Shown here piece by piece: positions 45,006-62,768 of a stretch of 64,000 bases of DNA; position 1 is the stretch's first letter; each line of letters opens with the position of its first letter. Origin of the DNA: Planctomycetales bacterium ZRK34. Its GTDB lineage: Bacteria; Planctomycetota; Phycisphaerae; Phycisphaerales; Zrk34. The translations under genes and the position numbers were made by a program. The notes beneath the pieces were generated by a model. That model was not told the DNA's origin, ran no database searches, and saw nothing but the letters and a program-made list of their open reading frames with translations. The stretch covers positions 1,426,001 to 1,490,000 of the forward strand of contig CP050848.1 in NCBI GenBank assembly GCA_014873095.1, read 5' to 3'.

Positions 45006-45812
45006 TCAATGTGAACGACGACGCATCAACATGCCGCCGAGCAGGACAAGCCCAGCCGGCAGCGCGGCCGGTGTGGGAATCGCCGTTGTAAGATCAGCGA
45101 AACCCCCGATGATCGACGGCGCAAAGTTTGACTTTTCGTACGTGCGATTGTTTGAATTGGCGATATACGCGGCGAGGCTTTGCCAACCTTCGAGCTGGCC
45201 AGATCCGGAAACCTGAAAATAGTTGGCGCCCGACATCATCGAGCCGAAATTGCCGGGGGCGTCCTCATCCGGGTAATAGAAGTTGAGTCGATTGCCGCCA
45301 TAGGTTGCCGAAGAAACGCTCGCGCCAGTGTTGTTGATGAAGTCGCTGAGCGTAGCGTACTGCCCGACATCGCCGTCGTTTTGCGACGAGTTGTCGCCTT
45401 CGTAGGTGACGTAAAACCCACCGGTATTGGCATCGTAGCTGAGCCCGTGCAATTCGCCGGCATTGTAGGCGCCCGTGCTTTGGGTGGTCGGCGCATCGGC
45501 GGCGAGCCAGCTTGTCAGAGAATTCCAGCGATTCACTTCGCCGTTGCCCGCCACGCCGTAGACACTGCCATCGGGCGTCATGGTGAATCCCTGATACGAG
45601 GCGTAGGCCGCGACGGTCGTTTCAGTCGTGCCCTGACTGCCGAGGGAGATGTTGTCGAAAGCCGTGGAACCACCGGATGCATCGAACCCGGCATAAGAAC
45701 GGATCGTGCCGCCATCGTTGATCAGGTACACCGTAGCGGCATCTACCGGTGCGGCCATGACGATCATCAGCCCGATCACCAGCAGGCTCAATTTCAGTTG
45801 CAGTTTCCTCAT
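45006..45812 (-). CDS. Secreted PEP-CTERM-like surface protein
   Basis: 268 residues from ATG 45812, with AAAGGAG six bases upstream, overlapping the FecR stop by one base (TGATG). A signal peptide (ending APVDAATVY) precedes a Gly/Ser/Asn-rich beta protein with propeller-like repeats. The C-terminus is [18 protein letters not shown] followed by an Arg cluster (MRRRSH): a short Pro-rich motif, a membrane helix and basic end, as in PEP-CTERM/exosortase sorting signals although the second Pro-Glu-Pro is replaced by Pro-Thr-Pro. Probably anchored on the cell surface after processing. It is the secreted partner in cassette 1. Confidence 0.87.
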
Positions 45813-47131
45813 CACTTGCTCCTTTCACGAGAATTGGTTTGCACTTGAACTGTGGTCCCCGAGGTCTGATGCGCCACAATCAACCGCAAATCGTCCGGGC
45901 CGTACCCGACCCACCGAACGCTCACGGCATTACGCTCGGGGCTCCAGTCGATGCGATCGGCGCCCGACTCGAGCCCGCGAATGCTCAGCGTGTCATAACG
46001 GGTGTACGGCGAACCAAGCGTCGGGTCGGTTCGGCCCAACAGCGCGGTGTCATCAATGGCGGCGAGGATCGGACGGTCGAACTGGATCGCTCCCTCAAGC
46101 TCGACATCTTCAAGCCCCGTGGCGTCTTTATGAAGCAGGTAGACATCGACAAGCGTGCCGGCAGCGACTTTGCCATGCGGCGTGACCAGATCGCTGTCCA
46201 GCTTCACCGCCGCACGTTCGAGGAATGCAAACATGGTTGTGTCGTCGGTCAACCGGTCGTTCTGCACGCTCGCCGGTGGATCATCAAGCCACGTCACCGC
46301 ACCCGAGACGCGCGGGGCGACCGGCACGCCCAAGCGCACCACATGGCCCGCAATTGGGTCATACTCCAGCATCTGATCGGCCGTCAGGTCGAGTGGCTCA
46401 ATGGCGACAATAGCCTGCTCGCTGGTGCGAACCTGAACCAGGCCCTGCGTCACGTGCACGCGCACCCGGCCCGAGTGTTCATCGACCGCCATCTCAAATT
46501 GCGTCCCCAGATCGACCACCACCAGCCCCCCCGGCCCCAGCACGGTAAAACCCCGCGCATCCGGCGGACACGTGAATCGCGCCCGACCTTGCGTCAATCC
46601 CACATGCATGGAATCCTTCAGATGAATCTCCGTAGCCCCCGCCAGCCCGACCTGCGTGCCCGAAGTCAGTAAGAATCCCGCAAAGCCGGAAGCCATACGG
46701 ATGGTTCCCGCGGCAACGTCCTGCCCCTCATAAAAAGGCTCAGAACGCCATGACACATTCTCAGCACTGGTCAACGTCGCCAGCATCTGAGGCCGCGAGG
46801 GTTTCATGGGTGCTACGGAAGCCGACTCCCGCGACCAAAGGACAAACCACGCCATCACCAACAGCGTGATCAGCGCCGCGGTAGCCAGAATCGGAACACG
46901 TCGTGATTGCCAGAGACTGGCCCGTGGAGCCGGCAACGTCATAGCCGGCACGGCCAATCCACCGTGTTGCCATTGCAGGGCGGCTTCAATCCGCATGAGC
47001 CGAACGTATTCATCGACCAGCGAGGTGTCTGCCGCCATCCGGACGTTGAGCTCGGCGACTTCATCCGGCAAGGCCACACCCGCCAGGCAGGACGCCATCA
47101 AACGATCGGATTCGACGTCCAGGCGACTCAT
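45812..47131 (-). CDS. FecR-type membrane anti-sigma factor
   Basis: 439 residues. The cytoplasmic N-terminus (CLAGVALPDEVAELNVRMAADTSLVDEYVRL pattern) matches the anti-sigma domain shared with the other two FecR genes here. One transmembrane segment lies at about 80-99. The FecR domain is at about 110-265 (FTVLGPGGLVVVDLGTQFEM). The last ~140 residues form a domain like that seen in secreted PEP-CTERM proteins (GTLVDVYLLHKD...GAIQFDRPILAAI...TLSIRGLESGAD). The ATG overlaps the ECF sigma stop (ATGA). It should hold the sigma factor inactive until an extracytoplasmic signal arrives. Confidence 0.88.
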   Translation of the reverse strand: MSRLDVESDRLMASCLAGVALPDEVAELNVRMAADTSLVDEYVRLMRIEAALQWQHGGLAVPAMTLPAPRASLWQSRRVPILATAALITLLVMAWFVLWSRESASVAPMKPSRPQMLATLTSAENVSWRSEPFYEGQDVAAGTIRMASGFAGFLLTSGTQVGLAGATEIHLKDSMHVGLTQGRARFTCPPDARGFTVLGPGGLVVVDLGTQFEMAVDEHSGRVRVHVTQGLVQVRTSEQAIVAIEPLDLTADQMLEYDPIAGHVVRLGVPVAPRVSGAVTWLDDPPASVQNDRLTDDTTMFAFLERAAVKLDSDLVTPHGKVAAGTLVDVYLLHKDATGLEDVELEGAIQFDRPILAAIDDTALLGRTDPTLGSPYTRYDTLSIRGLESGADRIDWSPERNAVSVRWVGYGPDDLRLIVAHQTSGTTVQVQTNSRERSK

Positions 47132-53840: not shown

Positions 53841-54581
53841 TTAACGCATCGGCAGCCCCACGCGGCCGGGGGCGTTGTATGCGGGGATGTTGGCTTCGTA
53901 GGTGTCCTGCCCGTCGATGAGCAGACCAAAGTCGGCGCTGGAGATCTCTTCGGGATGCATGTAGGCGGCGTGGCCGTCGAGGAAAGCCAGGATCTTGCCT
54001 TCGTGGGGCCGATCACGCAGATCGGTGCCGGCGCCCCAGCGCATCCACCCGCTCCACAGCGCCTTTTCGAGATCCGCCTCTTCGTTCTTGTTGTAGTGCG
54101 GACGCAGGTTGGCGCTGTTGTGCATCTGGTAGTCGTCCTGGAAGACAGACACCGTGGACGGATGCCGCGTCACATCGGGGCCGAACTCGGCGATGATGCC
54201 GTTCATGCAGTAACCGAATCGTTCGGTTTCGGTGGGACTGGAGTTGGTCGGATAGTCGTCGATGCTGTCACACGACAAAACCTCCAGGGATTCGTTGATG
54301 TAGGGATAGATGTTTCTGATCCAGTTGGGCAAGGCGAAACCGGTGCTCAGGGGATTCGTCCGCACCCACCCCTTGCCGGCATACTGAAACGGAAAGTAGT
54401 TTTTGTAGTCGAACCCATACATCGTCGATCCGAGGTGCAACTGCCGCTGATTGGACGCGCAGGCGGCCTGCCGGGCCAGCTCTCGCGCCTGGGTCAGCGA
54501 CGGCAGCAGGATGGCGATCAGCAGCGCGATGATGCTGACGACCACGAGCAGTTCGATGAGTGTGAATGCCTGTCGGCGCAT
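53841..54581 (-). CDS. Prepilin-type N-terminal cleavage/methylation protein, cassette 2
   Basis: 246 residues from ATG 54581; the frame opens upstream at 54632 with no signal. It has the [20 protein letters not shown] prepilin helix preceded by a Gln-Ala cleavage region. A [11 protein letters not shown] segment is in the middle and a C-terminal [12 protein letters not shown] motif matches the H-X-DG type of planctomycetal pseudopilins. Its first ~40 codons are closely related to the relic at 55778-55896. It lies between a PEP-CTERM-like gene and a sulfatase. Confidence 0.9.
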
Positions 54582-54671
54582 GTTGGTTCCTCTGGCGGCC
54601 GTGTCGGTGGAGCACGGTGAATGCGACCACACGACTTTCGCCGCATGGCCGCGTGCAGGCGGTGGCCTGTT

Positions 54672-55655
54672 TCAACGGCGGCGCTTAAGAGTCAGCAGCC
54701 CCATCATCATCAGCCCGCCGGGCAGCGCCGCGGGCGTCGGGATCAGTTCGAGCAGGAAGTGGGGATCGTTCAACCCGGTCAGCACATCAACGTGGGTTGT
54801 GGACGAAGTTGAATACGAAACCACGTCGGAGCCGCTCAGCAGCGAGCCCCAAACCACATTGCCCTCGATGTATTTGACGTCGAGCACATTGCCGATGTCG
54901 TTGGGGGTGTAGATTTCGGTCACCGTGGGCGTGCCGGTGGCGTAATCGGTCACCTCGTAAATGCTCATGTTGAAGGTGTCGCCGCTGACCAGGAGGCGAT
55001 CATTGACCGCGTCGTAGCTGAGACCACTCACCGTGCTCAGGCCGCTGAGAACCACGCCCTGGTAAGCGCCGGACGAATCAAACTTCAACACCTCGCTGGC
55101 GCCTCGGTTGGCGATATAGAAATTACCGTTGGGATCGACGGCAATGCCGCGCGGCGCGTTCAGCGTGTAGTTGACGGTGTCGGTTTTGGCGATGAATGTC
55201 GAAACGGTTCCGCTGGTGGTGTCGATCTTGAGCACGGTATCGTCATTGGTCGAACCGAATGCGACGGTGCCGTAAAGATTGCCGTCGGGCCCGAGAACCA
55301 TCTTGTCGACTCTGTCTGTCGAATTCCACGAACCAATCAACGTCCCGTTGGATTGATACCGATAGATGTTCATTTCGGTGGCGGCACTGACGTATACCGT
55401 GCCTGTCGCCTTGTCCTGGGCGATCGCGCTGGGCAGATCAATCCCATTGGCGAATACTTTCACAAAAGACCACGTGGTTCCGGTCACATTGTAAAGACGC
55501 ACTTCGTCGGCGCCGCCGTTGGCCACCAGCACCGGAGCAGCCTGCGCAGCCGGCGAGATCAAAAGCAGCATGCACACGACCGCGACGGCCAGCGAGATCA
55601 GTCGTTTTAACGGATGGACGGTGGCGGCGGCGGTGGTTTGTGAACGATTCTGCAT
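54672..55655 (-). CDS. NHL-propeller PEP-CTERM-like surface protein, copy 2
   Basis: 327 residues from ATG 55655 (AAGGAG seven bases upstream). Signal peptide ending PAAQAAP. An NHL-type propeller follows with the signature TDTVNYTLNAPRGIA and VDPNGNFYIANRG. The C-terminus is [19 protein letters not shown] then KRRR, a PEP-CTERM-like sorting tail. It is a tandem duplicate of the 55946-56950 gene, and the bases just upstream match the end of the FecR gene, marking the duplication. Predicted cell-surface protein. Confidence 0.88.
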   Translation of the reverse strand: MQNRSQTTAAATVHPLKRLISLAVAVVCMLLLISPAAQAAPVLVANGGADEVRLYNVTGTTWSFVKVFANGIDLPSAIAQDKATGTVYVSAATEMNIYRYQSNGTLIGSWNSTDRVDKMVLGPDGNLYGTVAFGSTNDDTVLKIDTTSGTVSTFIAKTDTVNYTLNAPRGIAVDPNGNFYIANRGASEVLKFDSSGAYQGVVLSGLSTVSGLSYDAVNDRLLVSGDTFNMSIYEVTDYATGTPTVTEIYTPNDIGNVLDVKYIEGNVVWGSLLSGSDVVSYSTSSTTHVDVLTGLNDPHFLLELIPTPAALPGGLMMMGLLTLKRRR

Positions 55656-55659
55656 CAGA

Positions 55660-55896
55660 CTACTCCTTCTCGGTGAATGGATTTTCAATCGGCATCAGTA
55701 GAACATGTGTCGGCGCGCCGTTTTTCGTCAGTACCGAAGCGGATGATTTCACCGCCGGCAAGAATGCGAAAAACCAGGCCGCCTGCCGAGCCGGTTCATG
55801 GGCCCGGGCCAGCGAAGGCCGCAGAATGGCGGTCAGCCGCGCGATGATGCGGACGACCATGAACCGTTCGATGAGTGTGAATGCCTGTTTACGCAT
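55660..55896 (-). pseudogene. Chimeric relic: prepilin N-terminus joined to FecR 3' end
   Basis: From ATG 55896 the frame reads MRKQAFTLIERFMVVRIIARL..., a decayed prepilin helix with charged substitutions (E-R-F, R-I-I, H-E-P). At about 55778 prepilin homology stops and the sequence matches the last ~120 bases of the FecR-NHL gene (57075-56955), first out of frame and then in frame for THVLLMPIENPFTEKE. It is the junction of a tandem duplication, not a functional gene. Confidence 0.82.
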
Positions 55897-55911
55897 ATCG
55901 TGATTTCCGAG

Positions 55912-55938
55912 AAGCCCGCGGATCCAATCCGTGGGCTT
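55912..55938. repeat. AAGCCC-type hairpin after PEP-CTERM copy 1
   Basis: AAGCCCGCGGAT and ATCCGTGGGCTT pair with one mismatch. It begins seven bases after the 55946 stop, exactly the position of the 44972-44998 hairpin in cassette 1. Confidence 0.8.
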
Positions 55939-55945
55939 GGTCATT

Positions 55946-56950
55946 TCAATATGAACGGCGGCGTTTGAGAGTCAGCAGCCCCACCATCATCAGTCCGCCA
56001 GGCAGCGCCGCGGGCGTCGGGATCAGTGCGAACATGGACGTCGCGTCGGCGAATCCGCCGGTGGCAACCACATACGTCGACAGCGAATCCGCATAGGCAA
56101 TCACGTCGTTCGGATTGCTCAGAGCAACGGTGGACCAGTAGGCGTAGCCCTCGATGTAGCGGGTATCCAATGCATTCTGGATGTTGCCGCCGGTATAAAG
56201 AGCGTTCAGTGTCGGTGTAGTGGCCAGGTTGGTGATTTCGTACTGGTTGGCCGCGGAGATGTTGCTCGTTCCGCCGATGACCAACAGGCGATCGTTGACG
56301 GCGTCGTAGCTGAGGCCGGTCGCATTGGAGACGCTGGCGATGTCCGCCACATAATTGCCCGCCGAGTCGAACTTGAAAATGGTGCCGTTGCCGCGGCTGG
56401 CGATGTAGAGGTTGCCGACAGAGTCCACCGCGATGCCGCGGGGTGTGTTCAACGTGTAGTTGACGCTATCGGTCTTGGCGATGAATGTCGTGACGGCGCC
56501 GGTGGATGTGTCGATCTTCTGCACGGTGTCATCCACACCGCCGGAGCCGAAAGCGATCGTGGCGTACAGATTGCCGTCGGCCCCGAGCACCATCTTGTCG
56601 GGACGATCCGCAAGTGTGGCCAGCAGGCCAATCGGCGTGCCGTCGGCGGCATAGCGGTTGATCTCATGATCCAGCGAACTGGCGATAAAGATGTCGCCGG
56701 TGCCGCTCTGCTGCGCGATGGAAGTCGGCAAGTCCATTCCGCTGGCGAATACACCCAGGTAATGCCAGTTGTCGCCGTCGACCTGATACTTCAGCACATT
56801 GTCGGAAATGCCCTGGGTCACGAGCACGGTCGTGTCGCCGCGCGCGATCGGCGCGGTCATCATCAACAGGCCCATGGCCATGACGACCAATGCAAACAGT
56901 CGCGTAGTCGGATTCGACACGATCGAGGTGGCTTGTGAACGATCTTGCAT
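55946..56950 (-). CDS. NHL-propeller PEP-CTERM-like surface protein, copy 1
   Basis: 334 residues from ATG 56950 (AAGGAG seven bases upstream), four bases after the FecR stop. Signal peptide ending PIARGDT. NHL propeller blocks include MVLGADGNLYATIAFG and the signature TDSVNYTLNTPRGIA. The tail is [19 protein letters not shown] then KRRRSY, a PEP-CTERM-like sorting signal. Shares most of its length with copy 2, differing mainly in the C-terminal propeller blades. Translationally linked to the FecR-NHL gene, so it is probably made when the sigma factor is active. Confidence 0.88.
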   Translation of the reverse strand: MQDRSQATSIVSNPTTRLFALVVMAMGLLMMTAPIARGDTTVLVTQGISDNVLKYQVDGDNWHYLGVFASGMDLPTSIAQQSGTGDIFIASSLDHEINRYAADGTPIGLLATLADRPDKMVLGADGNLYATIAFGSGGVDDTVQKIDTSTGAVTTFIAKTDSVNYTLNTPRGIAVDSVGNLYIASRGNGTIFKFDSAGNYVADIASVSNATGLSYDAVNDRLLVIGGTSNISAANQYEITNLATTPTLNALYTGGNIQNALDTRYIEGYAYWSTVALSNPNDVIAYADSLSTYVVATGGFADATSMFALIPTPAALPGGLMMVGLLTLKRRRSY

Positions 56951-56954
56951 CAAA

Positions 56955-58637
56955 TTACTCCTTCTCGGTGAGTGGATTTTCAGTTGGCATCAATAGAACA
57001 TGCGTCGGGCCGATCAGTTTTTCGTCGGCGCCGAAACGGATGATTTCACCGTCGGCAAGAACGCGAAAAACCAGTCGGGCTGAAGTGTCAACGACCAACG
57101 TGCTGCCATCGTCAAGTCGCTGGGCTTCGACGACGAAGTTCAGGGCGACCGGCGGATGCGCCCGAGCGGCGGGCGTCGGGTAAACCGACCAGAGGCCGCT
57201 GCCGGGGCCGCCGGTTTGCGTGGCGTAGAGTTTGTCATCGCGCCACAGCAACGATTGCGGACGCGACAGACCGTCGACGACCAGTTCCAGCAGTCGGCCG
57301 GGCTTGGCCGCCTCGGGGCCGGCAAACGCCAACACGTCGCCGGATTCACGATCGGCGACCAGCAACCGGCCGCGATCGTCGAAGCACATGCCGCGCGGCA
57401 CGCCGAAATGGCGCCCCGGGGCATCCGGGGCATACCTGTTGGCGATGAACACGTGCGCCGCGCTGCGCTGGACGCGATAGACCTGCTTCGAGTTGAAGGC
57501 ATCGGTAAAATACAGCGCTCCATCGGGGCCGAACACCAGCGTATCCGGCGTCACGCCCGGCGAGCCGGCACAGTACGTCGACTCGTATCGCCCCTCACGA
57601 TCGAAGCAGAGAATTCGGCCACCGGCATCCGACTCCGCCAGGTACACCCGACCATCAGGGCCCATGACGATGCCGCCGGGCCGCCGCATCGGCGGATTGC
57701 TCTCGGACGTGATGAAGCGGCCGATGTATTGACCGTTCAGGTCGTAGCGCAGCACCCGGTCGCCGCGCGTATCGCTGATGAGCACTTCGTCGCCGCGCTC
57801 GCTGTCGAACGCATGAACGTTCAACGCGATGTCGGTCGCCGTCGAGCGGTCGGCCGTCAGATGCACCGCCTGGTTGGCCGCCAGTTCGATCTGCCGACCG
57901 TTCATGGCGCCGCCGGTCAGACTCACACGCACGTGGCCTTTGAGCACGTGCACTTCGGTGCCGTCGACCTCCGACTGGGCCACGGCGAATCTCGTCCCCA
58001 AATCCATCACCTCAACGCCCGGCAAGCCGACGGAGAACCCCTTCATCGAAGGCGGACAGTCGAATACCGCCCGGCCACGAATCATCGTCACATGCATCGG
58101 GCCGTCGAGTCGGACCTCGGTGTCGCCGATCAGACTCATCATCGTGCCGGCCCCGATCATCAGGTCGGCTCGCCCCTCGCGGATCGCGATCGTACGATCG
58201 GCGATCGGCATCCCTTCGGTCAGCGGGTCAGAACCCCACGTGACGTTCCGGCTGTGAAGCAGCGTGGCGATGGCGATGCGGCCGGTCGGCGATGAGGATT
58301 CGCTCGACGAAACCGGTCGTTGGATCAGCCACCCCACTGCCGCCAGCAGAATCACCGCGGCGGCCGCGGCGTATTTCAGCCACGTCATGCCTCGCGGCGC
58401 GACGGTCGGCGCCGCATCGACGGCCGACTCAAACGGGATCGAACCGGTGGCGTCAACCTGGTAGCGACTGCGGATCGCGGCCGTAAGTTGAAAATATTCG
58501 TTGAACCAGCGACGTGCCTCAACATCGTGAACCAGCCGATCATTCAACGCGGCCAGCTCGGCGGGGCTGAGGTTGCCCTGTTCATACCCGGCCAGCAGTG
58601 CAGCCAGATCGTCGAAATGTTCGGCCGCCTGCGTCAT
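56955..58637 (-). CDS. FecR-type anti-sigma factor with extracytoplasmic NHL propeller
   Basis: 560 residues from ATG 58637, overlapping the ECF stop (ATGA); the longer open frame upstream is antisense/overlap with the sigma gene. N-terminal anti-sigma domain (LLAGYEQGNLSPAELAALND), transmembrane helix at about 85-106, FecR domain at about 120-275 (DLGTRFAVAQSEVDGTEVHVLKG). Then NHL repeats: GIVMGPDGRVYLAESD, LVFGPDGALYFTDAFN and GVPRGMCFDDRGRLLVADRESGD. A periplasmic propeller on a FecR protein is unusual and resembles the fold of the secreted partner next door. Confidence 0.9.
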   Translation of the reverse strand: MTQAAEHFDDLAALLAGYEQGNLSPAELAALNDRLVHDVEARRWFNEYFQLTAAIRSRYQVDATGSIPFESAVDAAPTVAPRGMTWLKYAAAAAVILLAAVGWLIQRPVSSSESSSPTGRIAIATLLHSRNVTWGSDPLTEGMPIADRTIAIREGRADLMIGAGTMMSLIGDTEVRLDGPMHVTMIRGRAVFDCPPSMKGFSVGLPGVEVMDLGTRFAVAQSEVDGTEVHVLKGHVRVSLTGGAMNGRQIELAANQAVHLTADRSTATDIALNVHAFDSERGDEVLISDTRGDRVLRYDLNGQYIGRFITSESNPPMRRPGGIVMGPDGRVYLAESDAGGRILCFDREGRYESTYCAGSPGVTPDTLVFGPDGALYFTDAFNSKQVYRVQRSAAHVFIANRYAPDAPGRHFGVPRGMCFDDRGRLLVADRESGDVLAFAGPEAAKPGRLLELVVDGLSRPQSLLWRDDKLYATQTGGPGSGLWSVYPTPAARAHPPVALNFVVEAQRLDDGSTLVVDTSARLVFRVLADGEIIRFGADEKLIGPTHVLLMPTENPLTEKE

Positions 58638-59155
58638 GAAGCGGCTCCTCGCGAGGCGGTCTGTCGTTGAATGCAATCGTTGAGCTTGCGGTAGACCCGA
58701 TGCAGCGTCTGGTAAACCGACTGCGGCTTGCGATCGGTGACGCGCGCGATTTCGTGGCCAGTCAGCGACTGGGCGTAACGCATCTCGATCAGGCGGCGCG
58801 AACGCTGCGTCAGTTGCTTCAGACAATGCTCCAGCGCCTGGGCCATGTCCTGGCTGGACATCGGCGTCATCCGGCTCCACTCGCTTTCGACCAGGTCCAA
58901 CACCTCGGCGTTGAGCATCACCGGCTCGCGATTCTTGCGGCGAAGCAGTTCGATCGACTCATTGCGGGCGACCTTGCGGACCCACGCCAGCAGATGGGTC
59001 TCATTTTCGAAGGTATCGCTGTGCTCGATCGCACGCACCATTGTCTCCTGGTAGACGTCTTCAGCCAGGTGATAATCGCGCACGATGGATAATATAAACC
59101 CAACGAACATAGGACGATGTGTCATTACACGCCGCACCACGGTTTCGCGATCCAT
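58634..59155 (-). CDS. ECF sigma-70 factor, cassette 2
   Basis: 173 residues; GGAGG six bases before the ATG. Region 2: FVGFILSIVRDYHLAEDVYQETMVRA and HLLAWVRKVARNESIELLRRKN. Region 4: QLTQRSRRLIEMRYAQSLTGHEIARVTDRKPQSVYQTLHRVYRKL. Of the same family as the 60664 and 47128 sigma genes. Followed by its FecR-NHL gene with ATGA overlap; a sialidase-like gene lies 79 bases upstream on the same strand and may share its transcript. Confidence 0.92.
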   Translation of the reverse strand: MDRETVVRRVMTHRPMFVGFILSIVRDYHLAEDVYQETMVRAIEHSDTFENETHLLAWVRKVARNESIELLRRKNREPVMLNAEVLDLVESEWSRMTPMSSQDMAQALEHCLKQLTQRSRRLIEMRYAQSLTGHEIARVTDRKPQSVYQTLHRVYRKLNDCIQRQTASRGAAS

Positions 59156-59234
59156 GCAAGGCCTCCAGGGTCATTACGGTGGCGGCCCCGGTGAACTCGA
59201 CATCACCGTTCAAATTTTATGGATATTTTTGCTT

Positions 59235-60467
59235 CTACTTCGAAGCCGGCAGGCCAACCTGATCCGGTGCGATGACCGAATCAGCCATCTTCAGCGCGCG
59301 GAAATCCGACAGACGGCGGAAGGTCAGAAAGTTCGCATCATGGGCGTTGTGCGCCCCGCCGAGGCCGTCATCGTAGCCGGTACGGATCGCCGCGATGATG
59401 TCGTCGCCGTCGAATGCCCAGTCGGGGTATTGGAAGCCGTGATGCGACACATTCGGGTGGTACATCACGATGCAGCGCATCTCCCAGTTTTTCAGGTCTG
59501 TCGATTTCATCAGCGCCAGCGCATTGCGAACCCCCGCCGCCGCGGCGTCATGTTGATGGCGCGGCAGCACGGGATTGACCAGCGACCAGTACGCCTTGGT
59601 CTGCTCGTCATAACGGATCGTGAACTTCTTCGCGCCGCCGGGGAAATCGATAAGATCCTTTTCGGGATCGAAGCTGGCGACCTTGCCATCATCGCTGATG
59701 CGAACGACCGCCGCACGCCCGCCATCTCGCCCGCTGTGCATGCGGAGAATGTCGACGATGTGACCGTCCGGCGTCACGACGGCGTTGCCTTCGAGCCATG
59801 CGTTGAACTTCCCGCCGAGCCAGGTCGGGTCGATCTTGATGAAGTTGGTGTGTGTCCACGAGGCTGCATCCAGCAGGTCGGCATCGACCGGGGCGCTGAA
59901 CACCATCGGGCTGTAGCGGGCGCCCCACTTGCGACCGTTGGTGGCGTCTTCGATCGCCCGCCAGATGCGGCCGTTGTGAATCAGCATCGGCATCGGCGCG
60001 GTGTGGTACTGACCCTCGGCAAGCAGGCCGTGCTTGGCATCAGTTGGTTGCGTCCATGTCGCGCCGCCGTCGTCGCTGCGGCGGATCACCAGGTCGCCGT
60101 GGTGCGCCGTCGGTCCCATCAGGTACAGCTTGCCGCGGTGAACGAACAGCTTCGACCAGAACGCCGGCTTGACCTCGGCCACCTGTCGCCAGGTCCGCCC
60201 GCGATCTTCACTGCGAAACACCCGCGTCGTTGCCGCTTCGTGTTCTTTCGTTTTCGGTCCGAACAGATCGTGCGAAGCCACGTACGCTCCGTCCGGCAGA
60301 ATCGTGATGCTCGGCGAGCCGACGTACATCCCGCCAGCCGCCGGCATGTGACCGATCACCGTCCCCGGCACGGCGGAGTCATTCGGCGTCTGGGCGTAAG
60401 TCGTTGACCAGACAGCCGCAACGCACGCCGCCAGCAGAATCCGCCGTAGAACAGTCATCGGGATCAT
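59235..60467 (-). CDS. Secreted sialidase-like (BNR) propeller enzyme, paralogue
   Basis: 410 residues; signal peptide ending STTYAQ. Sialidase-type propeller with MYVGSPSITILPDGAYVASHDLFG, Asp boxes RSEDRGRTWRQV and RSDDGGATWTQP, and WAFDGDDIIAAIRTGYDDGLGGAHNAHDANF. It matches the propeller part of the 50718-52364 product closely and lacks that protein's N-terminal domain. Divergent from the cassette 3 sigma gene across a 196-base gap. Confidence 0.87.
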   Translation of the reverse strand: MIPMTVLRRILLAACVAAVWSTTYAQTPNDSAVPGTVIGHMPAAGGMYVGSPSITILPDGAYVASHDLFGPKTKEHEAATTRVFRSEDRGRTWRQVAEVKPAFWSKLFVHRGKLYLMGPTAHHGDLVIRRSDDGGATWTQPTDAKHGLLAEGQYHTAPMPMLIHNGRIWRAIEDATNGRKWGARYSPMVFSAPVDADLLDAASWTHTNFIKIDPTWLGGKFNAWLEGNAVVTPDGHIVDILRMHSGRDGGRAAVVRISDDGKVASFDPEKDLIDFPGGAKKFTIRYDEQTKAYWSLVNPVLPRHQHDAAAAGVRNALALMKSTDLKNWEMRCIVMYHPNVSHHGFQYPDWAFDGDDIIAAIRTGYDDGLGGAHNAHDANFLTFRRLSDFRALKMADSVIAPDQVGLPASK

Positions 60468-60663
60468 GTGCAGAGCACTCCGTGATAAATGGTTGTGAAT
60501 CCACAGAAGGATCCGGCCAATCGCCCCTGTTTATACATGCCACCCTGTAAACTCTCACCACCAACCGAAAATTTCAACCTTCCCGGCGGGTTTATTTTTC
60601 TCCGCATGTATAAAAACGCCGCTATGAGCGGATCTATCTGAACTTGGAATCGGAGGCCATCAC
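60468..60663. promoter_or_regulatory. Divergent promoter region with inverted GCATGTATAAA elements
   Basis: TTTATACATGC (60530-60540) and GCATGTATAAA (60604-60614) are an exact 11-base inverted pair, each pointing outward toward the sialidase-like gene (left) or the ECF sigma gene (right). TG-x-TATAAA looks like an extended -10 element. No good -35 at 17-base spacing is visible, which would suit activation by a regulator or an alternative sigma factor. Confidence 0.55.
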
Positions 60664-61185
60664 GTGGCAGCAGACCGAAATCGCATTCTCAAGACGATCA
60701 TGGCCGATCGGATGCGGTTGTTTTCGTACATCTGGGTGATCGTGCGGGATGAGCACATCGCGGAGGATGTTTTGCAGGACGTGTGGATTCTCGCCACGGA
60801 GAAGATCGACGATACGACGGACATTGAATCCCTGCGGGTGTGGATCCGCCGGGCGGCCCGCAACAAGGCCCTGCAGGCCGTGCAGCAGCGGACGCGCGAT
60901 CAACTCGTGTTCTCACCGCAGACGCTGGACAATCTCGACGCCGCCTGGGGCATGCAGGATTCCACGCGCGTCGATGAAACCATCACCGCACTGCGGATGT
61001 GCCTGGAGAAGTTGTCGCCATACGCCCGACGAGTGGTGGAGTTGCGTTACGTAGAGGGTTTGACCGGAACCCGGCTGGCCGAGGCGCTGAATCGAAATCT
61101 GACCGCGGCATACGTGGCTGTCAGTCGCATCAACAAAACGCTGGCCGAGTGCGTGCGAAATCGCATGGCGGAGGATCGGTCATGA
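60664..61185 (+). CDS. ECF sigma-70 factor, cassette 3
   Basis: 173 residues from GTG 60664, with GGAGG seven bases upstream. Region 2: LFSYIWVIVRDEHIAEDVLQDVWILA and SLRVWIRRAARNKALQAVQQ. Region 4: KLSPYARRVVELRYVEGLTGTRLAEALNRNLTAAYVAVSRINKTL. Homologous to the cassette 2 sigma. Its stop overlaps the next ATG (ATGA), coupling it to the FecR-LamG anti-sigma. Confidence 0.92.
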   Translation: MAADRNRILKTIMADRMRLFSYIWVIVRDEHIAEDVLQDVWILATEKIDDTTDIESLRVWIRRAARNKALQAVQQRTRDQLVFSPQTLDNLDAAWGMQDSTRVDETITALRMCLEKLSPYARRVVELRYVEGLTGTRLAEALNRNLTAAYVAVSRINKTLAECVRNRMAEDRS

Positions 61186-62768
61186 ATCAGCCTCCGCTCA
61201 ATCACGAAGCAGAGCCGCAGGGCGGCGACGATCGATTCGTCTGGCTGACCTGCCGCTATCTCGATGATGTGCTGGTGGAAGACGAGTTCATCGAACTGGA
61301 CGCGATGCTCAGCAGCGATGGTGAATTGACCCGTCGCTTTACCAGGCTGTGCCTTCAGGCGAGGCTGATGTCCGAGCCCCTGGCCGACCGCATCCGCTGG
61401 CTGATCGACACCGATCGATCGGCCACGCTCACGAAGCCGCAGACGACTGGTGTTCGCTGGACGCTGTGGCGATCGGCGATCGCGGCGATGCTCGTGTTTG
61501 CCGGGGCGGTGGGGTTGATCGTGGCGATGAACCTTGCCGGTCACCGCGCGGACGTGGCGCCACAGCCGATGGCGAATGTCGCCACGATTCCAATTGCGAC
61601 CATCACCGGGGCCAACGATGTCGACTGGCTCAGCGATCCGCTGAATCTTGGCGAGGATGTATCGCCGCGTGTGCTGTCGATCGGCGCCGGCACGCTGGAC
61701 ATTCAGCTATTCTCAGGCGTAGCGATGACAATCATCGGCCCGGCGCAGGTCGATCTGCGACAGCCGATGCACGTGCGCATCGACCGCGGAACGCTCTACG
61801 CCAGCGTGTCGCATTCGGCGATCGGGTTCACGGTCGAAAGCCCCGGCTGCCGCGTGATCGATCGGGGGACGGTGTTCGCCATCACCGTCGACGCTGCGGG
61901 GGCGACGACCCAGGTGAGCGTGATCGAGGGCTCCGTAGACGCCATGGCGCTGGACGCCGGCGGCCGCATCGTCGATACCCGACGCCTGTCCGTCGGCACG
62001 ACCTGCCGCGTGAGTCGCGAGTCTCAGCAGATCGCCATAGATGAGGTGACCCCGCAAAAACAGTATTCCAGGCACGTGATGTACCTGCGGCCGACGGCTT
62101 ACTGGCCGATGAACCAGCCGGACGCGTCGGCGATGCGCGATGTCATCGGGCAGCGCCCGACGGTGAATCATGCCGAAGCGCACTTCGAAGCGACCGGCCC
62201 CTTCAACGCGGCATATCGTTTCGACGGCAAGCCCAAAGGCATCGACACAGGCATCGGCCAACTGCTGCCGGAACTGGCCGACTTCACCATCACCCTCTGG
62301 CTGCGCACGAGCCAGCAGAGCCAGGGTCACCTGGTTTCAGACAACTGGGGCTTCGCCGGCCGCGCGAACTTTTACATCGAAGATGGACTCTTGAAATGGT
62401 TCATCGGGTCTGAACCGCAGGTGCACCTGGATTCACCCGGCCCCGTTGCGGACGATCGCTGGCACATGGCCGGCCTGACGCGCCGCGACGGTCTGTTCAC
62501 GCTTTATATCGACGGTCAGATCGTCGGCTCGCTGGATTCCGACGAGACCATCGCGCCGGCGAAATCCACCTGGGTGCTTGGCGGCTCTCCGACAGGCCAT
62601 CATGCATACACCGGCTGGCTGACTCAGACGGCCGTGTTTGATCGCGCCTTGAGTGCTGACCAGATCAACGCCCTGTACAAACTGGCGCCTGAACCATCAG
62701 AACACTTCGATCCGACACCTGCATCGCAATCCAGCAGATCAAACTCGAAACAGGAGATCAAGACATGA
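61182..62768 (+). CDS. FecR-type anti-sigma factor with LamG domain
   Basis: 528 residues from ATG 61182 (GGAGG seven bases upstream). Cytoplasmic anti-sigma part (CRYLDDVLVEDEFIELDAML), membrane helix at about 97-117, FecR domain at about 130-300 (CRVIDRGTVFAITVDAAG). A C-terminal LamG/concanavalin-like domain follows at about 305-515 (FNAAYRFDGKPKGIDTG, FTITLWLRTSQQSQ, WHMAGLTRRDGLFTLYIDGQIVG, LSADQINALYKLA). The LamG domain faces the outside and probably binds carbohydrate. ATGA overlaps on both sides (sigma gene and LamG-NHL gene). Confidence 0.92.
   Translation: MNQPPLNHEAEPQGGDDRFVWLTCRYLDDVLVEDEFIELDAMLSSDGELTRRFTRLCLQARLMSEPLADRIRWLIDTDRSATLTKPQTTGVRWTLWRSAIAAMLVFAGAVGLIVAMNLAGHRADVAPQPMANVATIPIATITGANDVDWLSDPLNLGEDVSPRVLSIGAGTLDIQLFSGVAMTIIGPAQVDLRQPMHVRIDRGTLYASVSHSAIGFTVESPGCRVIDRGTVFAITVDAAGATTQVSVIEGSVDAMALDAGGRIVDTRRLSVGTTCRVSRESQQIAIDEVTPQKQYSRHVMYLRPTAYWPMNQPDASAMRDVIGQRPTVNHAEAHFEATGPFNAAYRFDGKPKGIDTGIGQLLPELADFTITLWLRTSQQSQGHLVSDNWGFAGRANFYIEDGLLKWFIGSEPQVHLDSPGPVADDRWHMAGLTRRDGLFTLYIDGQIVGSLDSDETIAPAKSTWVLGGSPTGHHAYTGWLTQTAVFDRALSADQINALYKLAPEPSEHFDPTPASQSSRSNSKQEIKT

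Follow-up and report, generated by a model that had tools for sequence, protein, structure and literature searches.

In the 64,000-nucleotide window analysed here (positions 1,426,001-1,490,000 of the 5.71-Mb single-contig genome of Planctomycetales bacterium ZRK34, genome 1), we found two cassettes in which an extracytoplasmic function (ECF) sigma factor and a FecR anti-sigma factor are followed by a secreted protein that shares a domain with the C-terminal tail of the FecR protein. Neither across the genome nor in a second genus is the pairing of FecR tail and next-gene domain random. The architecture of these cassettes, the homology between tail and neighbour, their non-random pairing, its conservation in two genera and the operon-like spacing of the genes are established by the comparisons described below. 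Throughout, X stands for the FecR tail, that is, the part of the protein after the FecR domain, and a cassette is called mirrored when this tail is homologous to the immediately downstream gene.

Both window cassettes, named A and B, begin with a recognizable ECF sigma/FecR pair, having a sigma-factor match, a transmembrane helix near residues 86-98 of the anti-sigma factor, a FecR domain above the Pfam cut-off and a 4-bp overlap between the two genes (Table 1). The initial annotation had read the FecR protein of cassette A as ending in an NHL propeller, with two NHL propellers as its secreted neighbours, and the FecR protein of cassette B as ending in a LamG domain, with which its neighbour begins; Pfam and BLASTP bear out both readings. 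The FecR-NHL protein is 31% identical to the adjacent secreted protein over 177 amino acids (7e-12; hhalign probability 98%), and the FecR-LamG protein is 28% identical to its own neighbour over 200 amino acids (7e-16). In cassette A, Pfam and hydrophobicity place a cytoplasmic N-terminus, a transmembrane helix from about residue 87, the FecR domain at 154-237 and the propeller from about residue 280. Modelled alone with AlphaFold, this tail forms a confident propeller (predicted local distance difference test, pLDDT, 88.8; predicted template modelling score, pTM, 0.89), whose nearest solved structures in Foldseek are NHL domains and designed Pizza propellers. In cassette B the helix starts at about residue 98 and is followed by the FecR domain (191-252) and the LamG tail (360-496), modelled with moderate confidence as a ConA/LamG-type jelly roll (pLDDT 75, pTM 0.72). 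Its Foldseek matches were generic ConA-like jelly rolls with low template modelling scores, and we drew no ligand from them. The secreted protein of cassette B overlaps the FecR stop by 4 bp, and its NHL propeller is closer to the FecR-NHL of cassette A (6e-20) than are the immediate neighbours of that FecR protein. A further FecR protein of the window, that of cassette 1, had been read as ending in a domain of the kind seen in secreted PEP-CTERM proteins. Its tail, which carries no Pfam domain, is similar to a secreted-type protein encoded elsewhere (phmmer 2e-9) but shows no match to the neighbour in its own cassette (hhalign probability 0%), so this cassette is not a mirrored case.

For a survey of mirroring we fetched FecR loci from genome 1 and its relatives, predicted genes with a simple codon-usage caller and compared the tails with all genes of the set; the counts therefore refer to fetched stretches, and whole-genome searches were made for the two window tails. 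Genome 1 holds more than 40 ECF sigma/FecR cassettes. In the initial set the gene at +1 matched the tail in 18 of 37 cassettes at E<1e-5, while 0.75 matches were expected with shuffled partners and never more than 6 occurred in 20,000 shuffles. With the inclusion of loci added by the FecR N-terminal half alone, 20 of 42 cassettes were mirrored (phmmer E<1e-5), against a permutation mean of 0.79 and a maximum of 6. At E<1e-20 there were 14 true pairs and not one of 1332 mismatched pairs in genome 1, and over genome 1 and its relatives the tail matches peaked at +1 (26/122), compared with 0-2.5% at other offsets. Profile-profile comparison with hhalign was bimodal, with 19 of 35 cassettes at 91-100% probability and the other 16 at about 0-2%, so that mirroring is a yes/no property of a cassette and not a graded one.

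These figures make it exceedingly improbable that LamG-like folds are simply so common that neighbours match at random. LamG is indeed frequent, the window LamG tail having about 20 non-self matches in the genome at E<=0.01, but none of the permutations came near the observed number of pairs, and the permutation tests rule out chance matching of common folds. Over the whole 5.71 Mb the best non-self match of this tail is its own neighbour (1.3e-15). NHL is rare: there are 7 intact non-self matches in the whole genome, 5 of them within the two FecR-NHL loci, the second of which is a sigma/FecR-NHL/NHL cassette at 126-129 kb. The initial proposal of a fold common to sensor and neighbour stands as a non-random pattern in genome 1 and in the second genus and falls as an obligatory rule, with 22/42 cassettes unmirrored. 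Obligatory mirroring is ruled out by the 16 of 35 cassettes without a profile match and by a relative (G003) with no match at +1. Unmirrored tails are more often multi-copy among FecR proteins (14/22, versus 3/20 of the mirrored ones; p = 0.002). We also considered that unmirrored tails might match the prepilin instead; there were few matches at +2 or +3, except for LamG-fused pilins in G003 and in G005, the representative of the second genus.

Table 1. Genes of cassettes A, B and 1, in window coordinates, with E-values of the domain matches.
Feature	Position	Strand	Evidence and remarks
ECF sigma factor, cassette A	58634-59155	-	Pfam Sigma70_r2 8.9e-15, r4_2 4.6e-10; stop overlaps FecR start by 4 bp
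FecR anti-sigma factor, cassette A	56955-58637	-	Pfam FecR PF04773 1.6e-8 and NHL 5.5e-8
Secreted NHL propeller, 334 amino acids, C-terminal tail PTPAALPGGL-x-KRRR	55946-56950	-	Pfam NHL/SBBP/SGL; 4-bp gap to FecR
Relic open reading frame, 94 amino acids, prepilin N-terminus fused to a copy of the FecR 3' end	55660-55944	-	Tandem-duplication junction
Second secreted NHL propeller, tandem-duplicate copy	54672-55655	-	Pfam NHL/SBBP/SGL; 52% identical to 55946-56950 (9e-109)
Prepilin-type DUF1559 protein, last gene of cassette A	53841-54581	-	Pfam N_methyl 4.8e-7, DUF1559/SBP_bac_10 5.4e-7 (scored on a longer open reading frame to 54632)
Secreted protein with BNR repeats (sialidase-like fold), encoded between the divergently oriented cassettes A and B	59235-60467	-	
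ECF sigma factor, cassette B	60664-61185	+	Pfam Sigma70_r4_2 7.8e-9, r2 3.9e-7
FecR anti-sigma factor, cassette B	61182-62768	+	Pfam FecR 2e-7 and Laminin_G_3 4.3e-16
Secreted LamG + NHL protein, 527 amino acids	62765-64000, running past the window to 64348	+	Pfam Laminin_G_3 1.3e-20, then NHL propeller
FecR of cassette 1, unmirrored example	45812-47131	-	Pfam FecR only, tail without Pfam domain; secreted neighbour 45006-45815

The usual order of a cassette, on one strand, is sigma factor, FecR-X, one or two secreted proteins and a DUF1559-type prepilin. In most cases the sigma and FecR genes overlap by 4 or 8 bp; the spacing between FecR and the mirrored gene ranges from -14 to 144 bp. The transmembrane helix of the FecR proteins starts at a median residue of 86, and the tail, about 245 residues long, has no second transmembrane segment, a topology from which we infer that the tail lies outside the cytoplasm. 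In about nine cases X corresponds to roughly the entire mature neighbour minus its signal peptide and sorting tail, and otherwise to one domain of a larger neighbour. The mirrored tails fall into about 19 sequence families, some without a known name. Those that Pfam could name, in the FecR protein, the neighbour or both, are LamG, NHL, tandem F5/8C, CBM96, CBM_4_9 and L-type lectin; judged by family, the named shared domains are mostly of sugar-binding types, NHL being the exception. In a mirrored cassette to the left of the window (1417196-1422100 of the genome), three LamG genes of the surface type stand before the sigma factor instead of after FecR; the FecR tail matches them with E-values from 2e-54 to 4e-24.

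The secreted partners usually end in a C-terminal sorting-type tail, which recalls PEP-CTERM/exosortase systems: several mirrored neighbours have PEP-CTERM tails at the level of model matches, for example L044:9097-9825 (3.5e-6). Unlike these, the window neighbours end in a 10-residue segment-x-RRR (segment-x-RRRR in the secreted protein of cassette B) and had no PEP-CTERM model match (TIGR02595/PF07589) in Pfam or NCBIfam. The two tail types coexist, with 41 PEP-CTERM and 30 segment-x-RRR tails in the sampled genes of genome 1 and 7 and 36, respectively, in G005. Two exosortases are encoded in each of these genomes, and each tail type may have its own.

In G005, 10 of 47 cassettes are mirrored. 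Reciprocal-best FecR tails define ten orthologous cassettes between this genome and genome 1, five mirrored in both, five in neither and none discordant, and the +1 genes are orthologous in all ten. Random pairing in related genomes, which the initial annotation had named as the outcome that would speak against it, was thus not seen: 5/5 mirrored orthologous cassettes stay mirrored. Within mirrored pairs the proteins are 28-55% identical and the third codon positions only 27-58% identical, so the pairs are old and not fresh copies, and recent gene conversion is ruled out.

The age of the pairs bears on an explanation without any shared function, in which FecR tails and secreted proteins draw on one common stock of secreted domains, and matches are left as a by-product of local duplication of, or recombination with, the neighbouring gene. 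The cassette A locus does undergo recombination, as shown by a 1.29-kb tandem duplication (54460-57082) that starts within the prepilin gene, reaches the FecR 3' end and has doubled the NHL gene. It is visible as direct repeats with a start-to-start spacing of 1280-1315 and 74-91% identity, and the final 17 residues of the relic open reading frame at its junction are 88% identical to the FecR end. FecR and secreted LamGs also interleave at least 14 times on the LamG tree, and half of the cassettes are unmirrored, as such a by-product would allow. Yet both copies persist in pairs that are old enough to have saturated third positions, the mirrored orthologues stay mirrored in two genera, and the same pattern recurs in about 19 unrelated tail families, all of which leaves this explanation improbable in our estimate. 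On the LamG tree the label FecR or secreted changes 14 times, and 31 times when labels are shuffled. For several FecR LamGs the closest copy is the neighbour in their own cassette, and a large group made up of FecR copies alone contains mainly unmirrored tails. The window LamG pair was not resolved as sisters on this quick tree; pairwise scores place it, together with its G005 orthologues, in a loose quartet.

We favour the reading, with a probability of about 0.4, that one ligand, probably a glycan, is common to the sensor and the secreted protein encoded next to it, in what would be a FecR version of RsgI-type sensing. A mirrored cassette would then be a one-operon surface-sensing unit. The membrane FecR would hold the ECF sigma factor, and its periplasmic tail X would serve to bind a ligand, in most cases a sugar. 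The next gene would supply a protein, secreted or sorted to the surface, that has this same X at its core, and the last gene would supply a pseudopilin. Once the shared ligand (a certain glycan or polymer of a surface) reached X on FecR, the anti-sigma factor would be inactivated, probably through regulated proteolysis; the freed sigma factor would have the operon expressed, and more X protein would bind to the ligand or be displayed on it. In this scheme we infer the identity of the ligand, the proteolysis, the regulon and the surface sorting. A function of the pairing, as a shared ligand or as mutual binding, is plausible from the sugar-binding nature of most named domains and from published precedents.

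The first of these precedents comes from Clostridium thermocellum, where RsgI anti-sigma factors detect polysaccharides through modules that belong to the same families as the secreted proteins under their control: RsgI6, with a GH10 tail, controls GH10 xylanases (xyn10 genes), and CBM3-tailed RsgIs occur in the CBM3 scaffoldin (CipA) system (PMC4711584). The likeness lies in a membrane anti-sigma factor with an outside module in the family of a secreted protein, which in genome 1 is that of the adjacent co-oriented gene in the 20 mirrored cassettes of 42. The RsgI system, however, uses other anti-sigma and sigma families, is Gram-positive and counts about eight systems, whereas here the matching secreted gene is next in the same operon, X is far more varied and a prepilin is attached. 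Pfam scans gave no match to the RsgI family; the N-terminal half belongs to the FecR family and the sigma factor is an ECF factor.

Several observations weigh against a shared ligand. NHL propellers are not typical sugar binders, and we know of no systematic adjacency of RsgI genes to a matching secreted gene; adjacency is the rule here, and direct contact between the proteins would account for it no less well. In about half of the cassettes tail and neighbour are unrelated, 22/42 being unmirrored at phmmer E<1e-5 and 16/35 of those tested failing the profile comparison as well. G003, a relative of the same family, is a different case: in about 40 sigma/FecR cassettes a prepilin comes straight after FecR, a secreted gene is lacking and the gene at +1 does not match the tail. 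At least 14 FecR tails of G003 are nevertheless LamG, and two exosortases are present. A tail can therefore exist without a mirrored neighbour, and the retention of these lone LamG tails is what one expects if the sensor binds something other than X.

The adjacency leads to a second way in which the pairs could function. Here secreted X would bind the X tail of FecR in the periplasm, in the slot held by STN in FecR, PupR and FoxR; X in transit would keep FecR protected, and once X was exported or engaged FecR would be cut and the sigma factor would restore the supply. The C-terminal STN subdomain of PupR is folded like the signalling domain of its partner, and binding needs both periplasmic subdomains (PMC7186176). 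The STN domains of FoxR and FoxA were modelled as pairing, a same-fold contact that protects the anti-sigma factor from proteolysis (PMC11637429). The proteins studied here have the same layout, with an N-terminal anti-sigma region, one transmembrane helix near residue 86, a FecR/CJM domain and then a C-terminal module with the fold of a partner encoded nearby, which is adjacent and co-operonic. In contrast to FecR, PupR and FoxR, the partner is a secreted surface-type protein and not a TonB receptor, and the module is LamG, NHL, CBM, lectin or another domain. The FecR proteins scanned from genome 1 had no STN or FecR_C match in Pfam, and the whole genome has one STN. It has only 4 TonB receptors, too few for more than 40 FecRs. 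The LamG tree also indicates that tails captured the neighbour's domain several times. Against such like-with-like contact, self-association would be needed in many unrelated folds, conservation extends to unmirrored cassettes, and G003 retains FecR tails although no secreted X is encoded next to them. We regard such contact as somewhat unlikely, and prefer a shared ligand because most X domains with a name are of sugar-binding types and because tails are retained where a secreted partner is missing. It is doubtful, though worth stating, that the C-terminal slot of FecR is a general mirror slot that lineages fill with a domain of their secreted partner for like-with-like recognition; if it were, the STN-STN pairing of the classical systems would exemplify a broader principle, and what FecR systems monitor would be the export of their own surface products.

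Some cassettes of the relatives depart from the usual order. Several sigma/FecR/prepilin cassettes of G003 continue into a gene for a sulfatase-like or other large protein. In one G003 cassette (L080:9495-10055) LamG sits on a second prepilin and matches the FecR LamG of the same cassette (6e-48), and in G005 (L103, gene n1150) a prepilin-type protein has a C-terminal LamG that matches the FecR LamG of its own cassette. These LamG-bearing prepilins suggest, from their domain order, that X can ride on a pilus-like fibre. Mirroring is rare among more distant Phycisphaerae, where most of the genes downstream encode large proteins or pilins.

ECF/FecR pairs, LamG-tailed FecR proteins and PEP-CTERM-type proteins are each of an already known kind. 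In the open-access literature searched we found no paper combining PEP-CTERM with FecR, or LamG with FecR and PEP-CTERM, and no description of systematic cassette-by-cassette mirroring. To our knowledge, the ligands of most ECF/FecR systems are unknown. The mirrored cassettes suggest that each sensor watches the adjacent secreted protein or what that protein binds, and they bring together, within one family, the sensing of substrates by anti-sigma factors (RsgI) and the recognition of partners with the same fold (PupR/FoxR). Mirrored and unmirrored cassettes provide natural positive and negative controls, and the G003 cassettes a natural set without a mirrored partner. If a shared domain does mean a shared ligand or mutual binding, the genome itself would name the partner of each orphan sensor, and dozens of Planctomycetes sigma systems would become testable pair by pair.

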